Positions 3,146 to 32,846 of a DNA stretch of 32,846 bases are shown piece by piece; position 1 is the first letter of the stretch, and every line of letters begins with the position of its first letter. Source of the stretch: Trueperaceae bacterium (lineage in GTDB: Bacteria > Deinococcota > Deinococci > Deinococcales > Trueperaceae). The notes under the pieces are model-generated. The model made no database searches. It had not been told where the DNA came from and was given only the letters and a program-made list of their open reading frames with translations. The DNA lies in the NCBI GenBank assembly GCA_020354625.1, contig CP070651.1, positions 3,616,006 through 3,648,851 of the forward strand, in the 5' to 3' direction. The translations under genes were made by a program, and so were the position numbers.

Positions 3146-3183
3146 GTGATGGGTGATGAGTGATGAGTGATGAGTAATGAGTG
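3146..3183 (+). repeat. Heptameric short tandem repeat, forward orientation
   Basis: Five to six consecutive 7-mers of the form GTGATGG/GTGATGA/GTAATGA read on the plus strand. A shorter copy lies at 3073-3090. The same 7-mer family reappears in reverse orientation at 3229-3284 and 16346-16410. It resembles the short tandemly repeated repetitive (STRR) sequences known from cyanobacteria and some other phyla; no function is evident. Confidence 0.75.
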
Positions 3184-3284: not shown

Positions 3285-3334
3285 CTTCGTGTCGGTTGGC
3301 TACATCATCTCTCATCACTGTTCACTCGTTACAT

Positions 3335-3351: not shown

Positions 3352-6312
3352 ATGGCCATCGCTGTCAAACTTCTCGGCACTCCCCAAGCGCTCCAGGCGG
3401 GCGAGTGGCAGGTATTGCCGGCCGACAAGCGCAGCTGCCTGCTGGCCTATCTCGCTTTTTGCAACGACTGGGTGGGCCGTGAGCACGTAGCCGCCCTCTT
3501 CTGGCCCGACGTTCCCGACAGCCAGGCCAGGCGCAACCTGCGCCAACTAATCAGCAGAACGAGGAAACTCGTATTGGCTGAGGAGTTTCAAGTCGAACCG
3601 GAGCAGATGCGGTGGCTGGTGGAAACAGACGTTGCCCGCTTTCGCCAAGCCGTCGGGCAACAAGACTGGGAGGGGGCAGCCACCTGCTACCGGGGGCACC
3701 TCTGCGAGGGGCTGCCGGAAGCTGGGGAAGGGTTTGAGTCCTGGCTCGAGCTCGAGCGAGAAAACCTGCAGGTGGCTTGGCGGGAGGCGGTGCTGAAGCG
3801 GGCCGGGGAGCTCGAGGCTGAAAGGCGTTATCCCGAGGCTGCCGATGCTCTCCAGCGCCTCCTCTCCCACGACACCCTGGCCGAAGATGTGTTGCAACAC
3901 TACCTCCGCTGCGCCTACCTGGCGGGCCGCCGTGAGGCGGCGCTGAGCGCTTTCGACGCCTTCGCAGACAATCTACGTGAAGAGCTCGATCTCGAGCCGC
4001 TCGAGGAGACCCGTGACCTCGCTGCGAGCATCCGCCTGGCTGAACCCTTGTCCCTGGACGTCGAAACCGAAGCCGAACCGGTACGCGTGCCCGTTGCCAT
4101 TCTCAGGCCGCAGCAGTTCGTCGGTCGCGAGGATGCGCTGCAGCAGGCGTTGACGACGCCATCGAGCGTGGTGATGCTCTCGGGGGAGGCCGGTGTCGGC
4201 AAAACGCGCCTCATGGAGGTACTCGCACCCAAGGCACCCATCTTGCGTTGCCAAGAGGGGCTGCAGAACGTCCCCTATCATCCGGTACAAGGGCTCGTGA
4301 GGGGAGCGGGGATGCCGGCTGTGCCGCCGCTAGGGAGCTATCTCGAAGACCTCGCGCGGCTCGTACCAGACATTGCGCCCAACATCACCCCCGGCCCTGC
4401 CGACCCGCACACAGCGAAACCCAGGCTTTTGGAAGCGCTGGCGCGCTACCTCGAAGGCATCGTTTCGGAGCACAAAGGGGAACGGTTCCAGCTCACCTTT
4501 GAAGATTTGCAATGGGCGGATCCTGCCACGCTCGAACTGCTGGTCTTTTTGAGCGCTCGTGGGACCTTGCGTCTCGTCGGCTCGTACCGGGACCACGAGA
4601 CCACGCCGAAGTTGCGTGAGGCCTTGCAGAGCGTGCGGGCGACGACGCTCAAGCTCGAACCCCTCGACGAACAGGCCGTGCAGGCCCTGCTGGCCGACCT
4701 GATCGGCCAGGAGCGAGGTCCACCAGTCTTCAGCCGCTGGCTGCACCACACGACCGGTGGAAACCCGATGTTTCTGCTGGAGATCCTCAAGTCGATGTTC
4801 GAGTCTGGAGACTTGTGGGCAGAGGGTTCTGGTTGGCGGACAAGCCTCGACGACATTACCCACGATTACAGCGAGTTCACACCCCCCCCTGTGGTGACAG
4901 ACGTCATTCAGCGGCGTCTGGCCGATCTCCCCAGTGAAGTCAAGCGCGTGCTGGAAACCGCGGCCGTGGTCGGTGAAGGGTTTAATCCGGAACTCCTCGG
5001 TAGCGTCTCACGCCTGTCGAGCTGGGTGACGCTCGAGGCGCTGGAAGAGGCCGAGGCACGAGGGGTAGTGCGCGGTGAGCGGTTCGCTCACGACCTCATC
5101 CGCAAGAGCCTCTATCACGGCCTCTCACAGATGCGCAGGCGCCTCCTCCACGCTGCCGTGGCCGACGCCTTGAGTGGACTCCCCGAAACGGATCCGGCTG
5201 TTCTGGCTGAGCACTGGCTCGACGCGCAGCAGCCCCAGAAAGCGATCGAGTCCTGGCAGGCGGGTGCTCAGCTCAGACGCGAGCGTGGGCTCTACGCGGA
5301 GGCTGCGATGTTGCTGGAACGCGCCTTGGAGTATGCCTCTGATTCAGAGACTTCACGGCGGCTCCGAGTCCTCCTCGGGAGCCTCTACAAGGAGATGGGG
5401 CGTCATCGCGATGCGGAAGCGATGGTCAGCGATCTTCTCGGTCTTATCGACGACCCGCCGACCCGTGCCGCCGCCCATGAGATTCAGGCGGGCAACTTGT
5501 TCTATCAGGGTAAGCTGACCGAAGCAAAGACGGTTGCCGACGCGGGCCTTGCGATCGCTCGTACATCTGGTGATGTGTCGTTGTCGCGCCGCTTGTTGGT
5601 GACGAAAGCCATGCTTCTGCACTCTGTCGGTGAACACCTGGAGGCGCTCGCACTACTAGAACCCATGGTGGTAAGTGCCCGCAAGAAAGCGCCGGATTTG
5701 GCATTGAGCCAACAGCTCAGCCACGTCGCTGCCATCTACGATATGTTGGGCCGTCATGAAGAAGCTTTGCCACTACACCTGGAGGCTCTCACGCTTGCCG
5801 AACGTATCGGAGCCCGCTACGCGCAAGTGGATGCCGCACTCAATCTACTCTACTGCTATATGGATCTTGGACGTACCGAGCAAGGCATCACTCCAGCCGA
5901 GGAGGCGCTCGAGCTCGGGCGTTACGAAGGGACCGATACCCTCCGCAACAACCTCGCAGCGGCCCTGGCCGATCTGGGGCGTTTGGAAGAGGCGACCTCT
6001 CACTACCAGACGTTGACTGAGGAGAGCAGCGACCCGACGCTCCTCTGCATCGCCTGGTCGCGCCTCGCCGACCTCTATGAGAGGGTGGGGTGCTCTGACG
6101 AGGTGCAGCCTGCGCTCGAGCGGGGCATCGACTTCGCCCACCAGACCGAGTTCGCGGTGGCTCAAGTCCGCGCAGTCATCAACACCTTGCGGCTCGGCTC
6201 GAGCGAGCAGACCACGAAGATCCAGCCCCTGCTGCAGCAACTTCAACCTGAAACACTCCCTACAAACCTACGCACCGAACTGGAAAGTGCCCTGGCTTCC
6301 CTAAGCGCGTAA
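3352..6312 (+). CDS. BTAD/SARP-type transcriptional regulator with AAA ATPase and TPR domains
   Basis: A 986-aa AfsR-like regulator. Residues 1-95 form an OmpR-type winged-helix region (starting AIAVKLLGTPQAL), and about 96-240 the bacterial transcriptional activation domain. A STAND/AAA ATPase core follows, with Walker A GEAGVGKT near 278-285 and Walker B-like FEDLQWAD near 383-390. The C-terminal 400 residues are a run of TPR-like helical repeats (for example HEEALPLHLEALTLAERIG). In known relatives the N-terminal half binds direct repeats near promoters, and the ATPase/TPR half senses a signal or partner. The ATG has no Shine-Dalgarno sequence. The neighbouring astacin gene and the repeat-flanked operon at 16460 are possible but unproven targets. 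Confidence 0.9.
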   Translation: MAIAVKLLGTPQALQAGEWQVLPADKRSCLLAYLAFCNDWVGREHVAALFWPDVPDSQARRNLRQLISRTRKLVLAEEFQVEPEQMRWLVETDVARFRQAVGQQDWEGAATCYRGHLCEGLPEAGEGFESWLELERENLQVAWREAVLKRAGELEAERRYPEAADALQRLLSHDTLAEDVLQHYLRCAYLAGRREAALSAFDAFADNLREELDLEPLEETRDLAASIRLAEPLSLDVETEAEPVRVPVAILRPQQFVGREDALQQALTTPSSVVMLSGEAGVGKTRLMEVLAPKAPILRCQEGLQNVPYHPVQGLVRGAGMPAVPPLGSYLEDLARLVPDIAPNITPGPADPHTAKPRLLEALARYLEGIVSEHKGERFQLTFEDLQWADPATLELLVFLSARGTLRLVGSYRDHETTPKLREALQSVRATTLKLEPLDEQAVQALLADLIGQERGPPVFSRWLHHTTGGNPMFLLEILKSMFESGDLWAEGSGWRTSLDDITHDYSEFTPPPVVTDVIQRRLADLPSEVKRVLETAAVVGEGFNPELLGSVSRLSSWVTLEALEEAEARGVVRGERFAHDLIRKSLYHGLSQMRRRLLHAAVADALSGLPETDPAVLAEHWLDAQQPQKAIESWQAGAQLRRERGLYAEAAMLLERALEYASDSETSRRLRVLLGSLYKEMGRHRDAEAMVSDLLGLIDDPPTRAAAHEIQAGNLFYQGKLTEAKTVADAGLAIARTSGDVSLSRRLLVTKAMLLHSVGEHLEALALLEPMVVSARKKAPDLALSQQLSHVAAIYDMLGRHEEALPLHLEALTLAERIGARYAQVDAALNLLYCYMDLGRTEQGITPAEEALELGRYEGTDTLRNNLAAALADLGRLEEATSHYQTLTEESSDPTLLCIAWSRLADLYERVGCSDEVQPALERGIDFAHQTEFAVAQVRAVINTLRLGSSEQTTKIQPLLQQLQPETLPTNLRTELESALASLSA

Positions 6313-7386: not shown

Positions 7387-7791
7387 TTACTCCGAAGACC
7401 CTTCGGCCACCGCTTTACCCTGTTCCTTCCAGGTGTTGAAGCCCCCGTCCATGTGCGCCACGTCGGTGTAACCCAGCTGTTTCAAGGTGCTGACGGCCAG
7501 GGCCGACCGCCCCCCCGAGGCACAGTGGAGGATGACCCGCTTATCGGGCGTTAGTGCAGGGTTGTGGTAGGGGCTGGTGGGGTCGGCGCGGAACTCGAGC
7601 ATCCCCCGGGAGACGTGGAGCGCCCCGGAGATGACCCCGTTTTGCGCCCGTTCGTCGCTGTCGCGAATGTCGACCAGAAGGACCCCTGGCTTTTCGAGTT
7701 CTTCAGCCACCTGTTGGGGCGTCAGGTTCTCGATGGCCCCCTTCGCCTCGGCCACCATCTGTGCAGCGGTCTTATTGGATGTTTCGCTCAT
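7387..7791 (-). CDS. Rhodanese-like single-domain sulfurtransferase
   Basis: A cytoplasmic protein of 134 aa with one rhodanese fold, starting MSETSNKTAAQM. Its active-site loop HCASGGRS (catalytic Cys near residue 98) and the C-terminal MDGGFNTWKEQGK are typical of single-domain thiosulfate sulfurtransferase/GlpE-like proteins. These move sulfane sulfur from thiosulfate or persulfides to cyanide or thiol acceptors. On the minus strand AAAGGAGG lies 6 nt before the ATG at 7791; an in-frame ATG two codons upstream abuts the ribosome-binding site and is unlikely. The gene stands alone, downstream of the sulfatase terminator. A role in the sulfur metabolism of its neighbours is only a guess. Confidence 0.9.
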   Translation of the reverse strand: MSETSNKTAAQMVAEAKGAIENLTPQQVAEELEKPGVLLVDIRDSDERAQNGVISGALHVSRGMLEFRADPTSPYHNPALTPDKRVILHCASGGRSALAVSTLKQLGYTDVAHMDGGFNTWKEQGKAVAEGSSE

Positions 7792-7825
7792 GCGCATCCT
7801 CCTTTCTTGCTCTATTCTGTATCCG

Positions 7826-7885: not shown

Positions 7886-8050
7886 GAAGTGGGATGGGAG
7901 GGAGGTGGTGTTGCACCCTTAAGCTAACCCCTAGCCTCTCACACGATTCTGAATGCTTTCTGACGGATTTCTGAATCGCTGAAAACCGTTCTACCAAGCG
8001 TTCTATGTTCGTCGTGACACGGCAACCCCAGCACCTCGAAGGAGGGGGTG

Positions 8051-16166: not shown

Positions 16167-16194
16167 TGTTCACACCCTGTTCAACGACTGTTCA
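16167..16194 (+). promoter_or_regulatory. Three TGTTCA direct repeats with 11-bp spacing, possible SARP-type operator
   Basis: TGTTCA occurs at 16167-16172, 16178-16183 and 16189-16194, exactly 11 bp apart; the last two extend to CTGTTCAA. SARP/BTAD regulators bind direct repeats at this helical spacing just upstream of the -10 box. A CATACT at 16207-16212 could be that box. Confidence 0.5.
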
Positions 16195-16345
16195 AGGCCG
16201 TCGTTGCATACTGAACACATCGGAGCGCTCCTCGCGTAGGGGAGCCTCCCTTTGTAAGGAGGCACGAGCCCATGCTCTTCAACAGGTTTGCGTTAACCTT
16301 CTCGGCCCATCGACGACTCAGATCCGATCGGCCTCTTTTAGCTTT

Positions 16346-16410
16346 TACTCATCACTCATTACCCATCACTCATCACCCCTTACCCATCACTCATCACCCC
16401 TTCCCCATCC
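16346..16410 (-). repeat. Heptameric short tandem repeat, reverse orientation
   Basis: About eight or nine 7-mers of the TCATCAC/TCATTAC/CCATCAC type on the plus strand, the reverse complement of the repeats near 3146. They end 49 bp before the HMG-CoA reductase start codon and would lie in the 5' leader of the mRNA if transcription begins near 16220. Confidence 0.75.
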
Positions 16411-16459
16411 CCTGCCTGGATCTGCTCCCACCCACACGAGGCTCAGATCGGAGTTCTTC

Positions 16460-17740
16460 ATGACCACCACGTCCAACCGTGCCGGACGCTATCTCGAGAA
16501 ACTTCTTGAAGACGCCAGCCTCGAGGAGCTGTTGCACCGTTTGGAGCCCAAGCAGAGCGAGCCGAGAACGAAGCTGCCCCGTTCTCCGACGATCACGCCG
16601 GAGTCGGTGGCGCAGCGTTGGGATGCGATCCCGGCGCCCGCCAACTGTCGTGAGGAGCTGCTCGATGCGCGGACCGCTGAGCAGATGGCACGTTACGAAC
16701 GCAACATCGAAAACTTCATCGGCACCGTCAAGGTGCCCATCGGTGTGGCCGGACCACTTCGCGTCAACGGCCTCTTCGCCCAAGGGGACTACTACCCCCC
16801 GCTAGCCACCACCGAGGCGGCGCTGGTGGCTTCTTACAGCAGAGGAGCCCGGCTCATCACCGAGGCGGGTGGCTGCTCGGCTCTGCTGCTCAACGAGGGG
16901 GTGAGCCGTTCCCCTGGTTTCGCCTTCGACAACCTGCGCGAGGCGGGCACATTCGTGCTCTGGGCCGTCAACGAACAAGAGCGCTTCAAAGAGGTGGCCG
17001 AAGCCACCACCCGCTTCGGGAAGCTGATCGACATGCGCCTGACCGTCGAAGGGAACCACGTCTACTTGATCTTTGACTACACGACCGGTGACGCGGCCGG
17101 ACAGAACATGGTGACCATCGCCACCGCCGCCATCTGCCGCTACATCGAGACCCACTCGCCGGTGAAACCGCGCTACAGCGTCCTAGAAGCCAACATGTCG
17201 GGCGACAAGAAAGCCAGCGCCCAGTCGTTCATGTCGGTCCGGGGCAAAAAGCTCACCGCTGAGGTCACCGTGGCCGCGGCACTCGTCGAAAAAATACTCC
17301 ACACCACGCCCGAGCGGATGGCCGAGCACTGGCGCATGTCGTCGATGGGGGGTGTGTTGAGCGGGACCATCGGCGTCCAGGGACACTACGCCAACGGCTT
17401 GGCTGCGCTCTACCTCGCCTGTGGCCAGGATGTCGCTTGTGTTTCAGAGTCTGCCGTCGGCGTCACGCGTTTCGAGGTAACGGACGAGGGCGCGCTCTAC
17501 GCCTCGGTGACGCTGCCCAACCTGATCGTCGGCACGGTCGGCGGCGGGACGGGCCTGCCGAGCCAACGTGCCTGCCTCGATCTCCTCGGGCTCGGCGGAA
17601 ACGGGAAGTCCCAGGCCTTCGCCGAAGTCTGCGCCGCCCTAGCCCTGGCCGGCGAGCTGTCGATCGCCGGTGCGCTCTGCGCCGGGCATTTCGCCGACGC
17701 CCATCAGCGCTTGGCCAGGGGCACGAGCGGAGCGCGTTGA
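16460..17740 (+). CDS. Class I hydroxymethylglutaryl-CoA reductase
   Basis: A soluble enzyme of 426 aa that reduces HMG-CoA to mevalonate with NAD(P)H. Class I signatures are all visible: ENFIGTVKVPIGVAGPL (catalytic Glu near 83), DAAGQNMVTIAT (Asp near 211), GDKKASAQSF (catalytic Lys near 250), GTVGGGTGLPSQ, and the C-terminal GHFADAHQRLARG with the catalytic His. The short N-terminus without membrane helices matches archaeal and bacterial class I forms. The ATG at 16460 is chosen for GGAG 7 nt upstream; the open frame before it is repeat-derived. Its TGA overlaps the ATG of the UbiA gene by one base. Deinococcota normally make isoprenoids by the MEP route, so a lone reductase here is unexpected. 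Confidence 0.95.
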   Translation: MTTTSNRAGRYLEKLLEDASLEELLHRLEPKQSEPRTKLPRSPTITPESVAQRWDAIPAPANCREELLDARTAEQMARYERNIENFIGTVKVPIGVAGPLRVNGLFAQGDYYPPLATTEAALVASYSRGARLITEAGGCSALLLNEGVSRSPGFAFDNLREAGTFVLWAVNEQERFKEVAEATTRFGKLIDMRLTVEGNHVYLIFDYTTGDAAGQNMVTIATAAICRYIETHSPVKPRYSVLEANMSGDKKASAQSFMSVRGKKLTAEVTVAAALVEKILHTTPERMAEHWRMSSMGGVLSGTIGVQGHYANGLAALYLACGQDVACVSESAVGVTRFEVTDEGALYASVTLPNLIVGTVGGGTGLPSQRACLDLLGLGGNGKSQAFAEVCAALALAGELSIAGALCAGHFADAHQRLARGTSGAR

Positions 17741-32259: not shown

Positions 32260-32846
32260 GAGACGCGTTGTAACTCTACGACCACAGATCCGATCTCAAC
32301 TCTTGCGCTTATCAGCCCTGGTTGGATGGCTTCTATTTACCGTTGTACTGCTTTCTGCCTGTGGCAGTCAGACGGCGACGGTGCCGCTGCCGTTCGTAGT
32401 GGCGATCGAGCCTCAGATGGACGCTACCGACGTGCCTGTCGACACGGTGATATCGGTAACGTTCGGCTCGGAAGTGTTTCAAGACACTCCTGACACCATC
32501 ACCCTGATGGTCGGTGAGCTGGTCGCTTCCGGTGTGATATCCTACGACGCCGAGACGAAAACCGCGACCTTCACACCAGATGCCCTTTTGGAGTACGACA
32601 TGCAGTACTCCGTCAGTTTGGCTGATGGCATTAGTCTCGATGCAGGTCTCATGCCGGCGAGCACACATACCTGGAGCTTCACTACCGAGTCACCTCCAGA
32701 GGCAGATCCCACGGATCCGACCGACCCCACGGATCCGACCGACCCCACGGATCCGACCGACCCCACGGATCCGACCGACCCCACGGATCCGACCGACCCC
32801 ACGGATCCGACCGACCCCACGGATCCGACCGACCCCACGGATCCGA
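32258..32846 (+). CDS. Ig-like (SbsA/Big_5) domain lipoprotein with Asp-Pro-Thr repeat, 3' end outside the window
   Basis: The first 196 codons of a gene that has no stop before the window ends. The N-terminus MRRVVTLRPQIRSQ is followed by a hydrophobic segment and the lipobox LLSAC (Cys near residue 37), so it is a surface lipoprotein. Residues about 48-145 form an SbsA-type Ig-like domain: IEPQMDATDVPVDTVISVTF, TITLMVGELVASGVISYD, TATFTPDALLEYDMQYSVSL, and WSFTTE. From about residue 150 the protein is a run of DPT tripeptides, a probable extended stalk leading to a further domain beyond the window. The ATG lies in a hairpin and has no ribosome-binding site. Confidence 0.82.
   Translation, partial: MRRVVTLRPQIRSQLLRLSALVGWLLFTVVLLSACGSQTATVPLPFVVAIEPQMDATDVPVDTVISVTFGSEVFQDTPDTITLMVGELVASGVISYDAETKTATFTPDALLEYDMQYSVSLADGISLDAGLMPASTHTWSFTTESPPEADPTDPTDPTDPTDPTDPTDPTDPTDPTDPTDPTDPTDPTDPTDPTDP
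32705..32846 (+). repeat. 18-bp tandem repeat encoding DPTDPT
   Basis: Almost eight nearly identical copies of GACCCCACGGATCCGACC run to the window edge; only the first differs, at one base. The unit length keeps the frame and codes for Asp-Pro-Thr twice. Near-identity at the DNA level shows recent expansion or homogenisation, so the copy number is likely variable and may be misassembled. Confidence 0.95.

Follow-up and report, generated by a model that had tools for sequence, protein, structure and literature searches.

Upstream of an HMG-CoA reductase gene in the genome of a Trueperaceae bacterium lies a short run of three evenly spaced direct repeats, and the question it raises is whether these form a promoter and, if so, of what kind and under which regulator. 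The genome (G000) is a single contig of 4.29 Mb, C1, and the window analysed here is the whole stretch of 32,846 nucleotides from 3616006 to 3648851 of that contig. At window positions 16167-16194 it reads TGTTCACACCCTGTTCAACGACTGTTCA, with TGTTCA starting at 16167, 16178 and 16189, i.e. 11 bp apart, in the layout TGTTCA-N5-TGTTCA-N5-TGTTCA. Positions and spacing are as claimed in a preliminary description of this DNA, and its judgement that the arrangement is unlikely by chance holds. The triad has no other match in the window even with up to three mismatches, and at the same tolerance it appeared in 0 of 100 dinucleotide shuffles (chance expectation 0). In Markov-resampled windows 0.0 cases are expected of any hexamer occurring three times at a constant period of 9–12 bp; the window has two. 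The hexamer TGTTCA is found 21 times in the window versus 10.7 expected. Lone copies at 3319 and 6343, to which the preliminary description had also drawn attention, are indeed present, but neither has an 11-bp partner and among 21 copies they add little.

Comparison among sites shows that the unit kept is GTTCA, and that the recurring architecture is GTTCA-N6-GTTCA-N12-YANNNT, preceded in some sites by a third repeat. The parts of the putative promoter in the window, all on the plus strand, are:

16168-16172, plus strand: GTTCA repeat 1, the optional upstream repeat, at about -51 to -47 from the predicted start
16179-16183, plus strand: GTTCA repeat 2, at about -40 to -36, which would correspond to the AfsR upstream repeat
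16190-16194, plus strand: GTTCA repeat 3, at about -29 to -25, which would correspond to the AfsR downstream repeat
16207-16212, plus strand: -10 hexamer CATACT, 12 nt past the third GTTCA, the same position as in the other sites of this genome
16219, plus strand: predicted transcription start (+1), the seventh base past the -10 hexamer, where the leaderless ATGs of relatives begin

A search of the window's own genome with GTTCA-N6-GTTCA-N12-YAYMCT gives four sites at 0–1 mismatch: the triad, with 0 mismatches, and sites at contig positions 557480(+), 1750655(-) and 4044851(+). Matches at two mismatches are at the control level. The 12-nt spacing is found in all four, and the -10 hexamers of the other three are CATCCT, CATCCT and CACCCT; the -10s of this genome are thus CA-type, whereas those of relatives are TA-type (TANNNT). 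Across the 111 genomes of the order (the set at the class level consists of the same 111), the bare triad has 12 matches versus 0 for the reversed control, and two repeats followed by TANNNT at 12 nt have 43 matches versus 3. Among triads picked without any -10 criterion, TANNNT turned up seven times at 12 nt and once across all other offsets, and because a -10 played no part in their selection this check of the spacing is not circular. A third repeat placed exactly at -11 is enriched, though not obligatory: about one quarter of relatives' sites have it. A sigma-70 consensus scan reported no promoter, as expected for a promoter that lacks a -35, and no match was found in Rfam.

The genes that follow these sites are mostly for lipoproteins or S8 proteases. 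A lipoprotein-like ORF comes after 22 of 37 sites, versus 4% at random positions of the same regions. Six sites have an ATG exactly at +1, i.e. 6 nt past the -10 hexamer, and those of these ATGs that were read open leaderless mini-ORFs, e.g. MPLSLWDLDGYSFPAEV. Leaderless ATGs at this place would fix +1, with the repeats at -40 and -29. We note that leaderless mini-ORFs are conserved at the predicted +1 at five loci (MPLSLWDLDG..., MPISIIEIDG..., MPWIFTELDG...), and that those in Thermaceae and Deinococcus loci precede S8 peptidase or lipoprotein genes.

Genes for SARP-type regulators are linked to the sites. In genomes of a family other than the window's (f4, taken as Thermus, Meiothermus and relatives) we scanned the surroundings of sites with a SARP profile, in 20 regions each some 18 kb long. 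A SARP-type gene was found in 15 of these regions, with 0.84 expected (Poisson P 3e-14, a value that overstates independence, as the count includes related species at shared loci); none was detected in the other five, and control regions totalling 230 kb contained 0 SARP genes. All but one of the 15 linked SARPs belong to a single subfamily, LxTLGG, which a profile comparison ties to canonical SARPs with a probability of 99% and an E of 3e-18. The subfamily occurs in 23 of 23 sufficiently complete f4 genomes with sites, versus 14 of 26 without (Fisher P 1e-4, uncorrected for phylogeny). In G008, a genome from the same family as the window's, two sites flank a SARP gene. The association extends to named records outside the sample: on plasmid pMESIL01 of Allomeiothermus silvanus and on a Deinococcus psychrotolerans plasmid the box adjoins a SARP gene and an S8 peptidase gene, and in D. 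psychrotolerans the box stands before the peptidase and is followed by the leaderless MPWIFTELDG mini-ORF. Five other plasmid loci, including one of Meiothermus taiwanensis, had no box at the same stringency, and the plasmid collection held no relatives of the window region.

AfsR acting on afsS offers a ready comparison. There the upstream 11-bp repeat spans -40 to -30 and the downstream repeat -29 to -19, as inferred from a 22-bp box centred at -29.5; the repeats overlap a poor -35 (TTCAGC), and the -10, CACTGT, is weak (PMC10936776). At the site described here, as in this afs box of Streptomyces coelicolor, direct repeats with an 11-bp period occupy the -40 and -29 frames and overlap the -35, TTCA lies in the contacted part, and the -10 is similarly weak. 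Unlike the afs box, the site places TTCA about 1 bp further upstream, keeps strictly to the word GTTCA and adds a third repeat; where the targets of the afs box are antibiotic regulators, those linked to the present class are secreted proteases and lipoproteins, with a lipid operon in the case of the triad. The operator of PimR, a SARP-containing regulator of Streptomyces polyene clusters, shares three repeats with 11-bp periodicity, albeit as CGGCAAG heptamers rather than GTTCA and without overlap of the -35 (PMC5930380), which the repeats here do overlap.

Three features, namely the fixed 12-nt distance to the -10, the genomic link with SARP genes and a register like that of AfsR, support the SARP-box class well. 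Judging from these sequence comparisons, the promoter type is shared across Deinococcota and very probably switched on by AfsR-like (SARP) regulators. We are fairly confident that 16168-16212 is a SARP-type, activator-dependent promoter of the HMG-CoA reductase operon, whose regulator would be an LxTLGG SARP rather than the SARP encoded in the window at 3352. The preliminary description had proposed both a SARP/BTAD direct-repeat box beside the -10 and the 3352 protein as its regulator; its reading is well supported as to the class and probably wrong as to the protein. In the mechanism proposed here, GTTCA repeats that begin at -51, -40 and -29, one every 11 bp, would take the place of a -35 element. 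AfsR-like SARP protomers, two or three of them, would occupy neighbouring repeats along the same face of the DNA and bring sigma region 4 and RNA polymerase to the weak -10 CATACT, and transcription would begin near 16219 into the operon.

The nearest SARP gene, about 10–13 kb from the triad, is the one in the window:

3352-6312, plus strand: large SARP-AAA-TPR regulator with a BTAD domain, the candidate of the preliminary description

That a BTAD regulator is encoded here is borne out (Pfam BTAD E=2.3e-13), and in a hand alignment the protein keeps residues that match AfsR DNA contacts (S91, R92, R94, K95). Its proximity and these residues favour it as the protein that binds the triad, but several AfsR contact residues are conserved across SARPs generally, so that no specificity follows from them (PMC10936776). 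Moreover, the 3352 protein does not belong to the SARP subfamily that goes with GTTCA boxes, having 27% identity to a linked member, and no GTTCA comb is found near its gene or near ten other non-LxTLGG SARP/BTAD loci of the genome. We regard binding of the triad by this protein as improbable. A single-sequence AlphaFold model of its N-terminus had a pLDDT of 43 and was set aside.

The window contains a second exact 11-bp triad, TTCTGA three times (TCAGAA on the minus strand) at 7947-7974, upstream of a rhodanese-like gene at 7387-7797(-). About 0 such triads are expected, and it is unique among the 111 genomes at up to one mismatch; it has no -10 at the 12-nt position. It may serve a different SARP, for example 3352, which lies 1.6 kb away.

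The most likely regulator of the GTTCA triad is probably an LxTLGG SARP, and the best candidate on sequence grounds is that at C1:53,934 rather than 3352. The gene at G000:C1:53,934-57,266 encodes SARP, STAND ATPase and TPR parts and is the top LxTLGG member of the genome; Pfam recognises NB-ARC/AAA and TPR, in the large-SARP layout (SARP-STAND-TPR) that AfsR has. The protein matches a canonical-only SARP profile at 5e-14, and its N-terminus is predicted to form an OmpR-type DNA-binding plus BTAD region. Pfam BTAD misses it, giving weak scores in only 4 of 11 subfamily members, and sequence searches of the PDB returned no SARP match. At this locus a divergent promoter, which faces the gene of a secreted beta-lactamase-fold protein, has three GTTCA and a last GTTGA, at spacings of 12, 12 and 11 bp, before CATCAT. 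Imperfect as this comb is, it is the only one that adjoins a SARP gene among the 19 own-genome SARP loci examined; the other 18, including eight LxTLGG paralogues, have no GTTCA comb. No SARP gene was detected near the three own-genome sites besides the triad (sites B, C and D). At least nine LxTLGG paralogues, absent from the hits of the Pfam BTAD search, are encoded in G000:C1. Their recognition helices are divergent, that of the paralogue at 909k being nearer to the Thermaceae type, and because these residues vary another paralogue may be the actual partner.

The presumed target of the triad promoter is the operon that starts at 16460 and runs on to 26479. Its first gene lies about 265 bp downstream of the triad and 240 nt after the predicted +1, and a low-complexity tract lies between. 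The features of this interval and the gene itself are:

16222-16250, plus strand: GC-rich 5'UTR stem-loop near +1, a predicted fold with a z of -1.8, which is weak evidence
16256-16262, plus strand: AAGGAGG, ribosome-binding-like in sequence, for the small ORF at 16272
16272-16463, plus strand: 63-aa ORF with a low-complexity repeat tract inside, its TGA overlapping the HMG-CoA reductase ATG
16460-17740, plus strand: HMG-CoA reductase, the first annotated downstream gene (Pfam PF00368 E=2.6e-115)

HMG-CoA reductase is followed by UbiA, a PEP-synthase-like protein and DUF3419, and then by further genes, for a membrane protein without a Pfam match, a GNAT protein and an acyl-CoA ligase-like protein. 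The 63-aa ORF could possibly be a coupled leader ORF, although this assignment is uncertain. A stem-loop near +1 is present in several relatives, not in all, as a generic 5'UTR hairpin that is strong in some Thermaceae sites and weak here. Degenerate heptamer tracts resembling CATCACTCATCACCC are present at window positions 16345-16412 and 3146-3183, and CATCACTCATCACCC-like tracts also occur upstream of HMG-CoA reductase in another genome, G017.

Cyanobacteria, Nitrospirae, Gammaproteobacteria, Acidobacteria, Gemmatimonadetes and others have HMG-CoA reductases 36–70% identical to that of the window, and so wide a distribution over phyla, at identities reaching 70%, suggests that this lipid/isoprenoid cassette has spread horizontally. 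The preliminary description had proposed to look for conservation of the triad before the operon in relatives and had named its absence there as a refutation; taken literally, that absence is what is seen, as the repeats are lacking in every other carrier of HMG-CoA reductase that was examined. In two Trueperaceae genomes that belong to a different genus, an aroC-like gene lies directly upstream and there are no repeats. They are absent as well from all 24 regions upstream of HMG-CoA reductase that were compared across phyla, one of which is this Trueperaceae locus. With the repeats absent before the gene in other carriers, the triad is not part of the cassette. As read from these comparisons, its position before the operon is a lineage-specific recruitment, the box being conserved as a promoter class and not at the operon.

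The same absence would also fit a chance or decayed repeat with no function here, e.g. the leftover promoter of a gene displaced by the HMG-CoA reductase cassette. Coding is sparse between 14.3 and 16.4 kb of the window, a repeat tract lies between box and gene, and the box is some 240 nt before the gene, much as site B has no obvious gene close downstream. However, selection would probably be needed to preserve three perfect repeats and a -10 at the right distance, all at 0 mismatches, and the chance expectation is 0; we consider such a relic unlikely.

Pho boxes, bound by PhoP in Streptomyces and PhoB in E. coli, are likewise 11-bp direct repeats that replace the -35, and the actinobacterial word is GTTCA-like. 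An OmpR/PhoB-family response regulator would thus match the box in repeat period, position and, very nearly, word, and the downstream DUF3419 domain presumably resembles BtaA of phosphate-starvation betaine lipids. Against it, the sites go with SARP genes, the surroundings of the own-genome sites yielded no recognisable pst gene, and GTTCA repeats were found in 0 of 18 pstS upstream regions of relatives, which leaves binding by such a regulator unlikely. Several of the relatives' pstS upstream regions contain TGAC-N7-TGAC direct repeats, a possible Pho box of the order.

For a SARP-type promoter the wider setting is of interest. We see about an even chance that, as the sequences would have it, Deinococcota possess an undescribed, phylum-wide SARP regulon in which AfsR-like regulators control secreted S8 proteases and lipoproteins via GTTCA boxes, partly via leaderless mini-ORFs (MPLSLWDLDG..., MPWIFTELDG...), and which in the window's lineage was recruited to drive the horizontally spread HMG-CoA reductase cassette. 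To our knowledge, nearly all that is known of SARPs comes from the antibiotic clusters of Streptomyces. In the open literature (most subscription journals being outside this scope) we found no description of such a GTTCA-box regulon, and for Thermus, Meiothermus or Deinococcus the only work of this kind that we found concerns DnrS of T. thermophilus, which contains a BTAD domain. In public annotation the linked regulators are named only 'tetratricopeptide repeat protein', and under that name their role as regulators seems to have been overlooked. With its defined box, fixed -10 spacing and linked subfamily, this becomes a testable SARP regulon in Thermaceae and on Deinococcus plasmids, and the box allows its targets, secreted proteases and lipoproteins, to be predicted from sequence alone.

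At its far end, from 32708 to 32846, the window contains a perfect 18-bp tandem repeat of 7.7 copies that runs off the window end.
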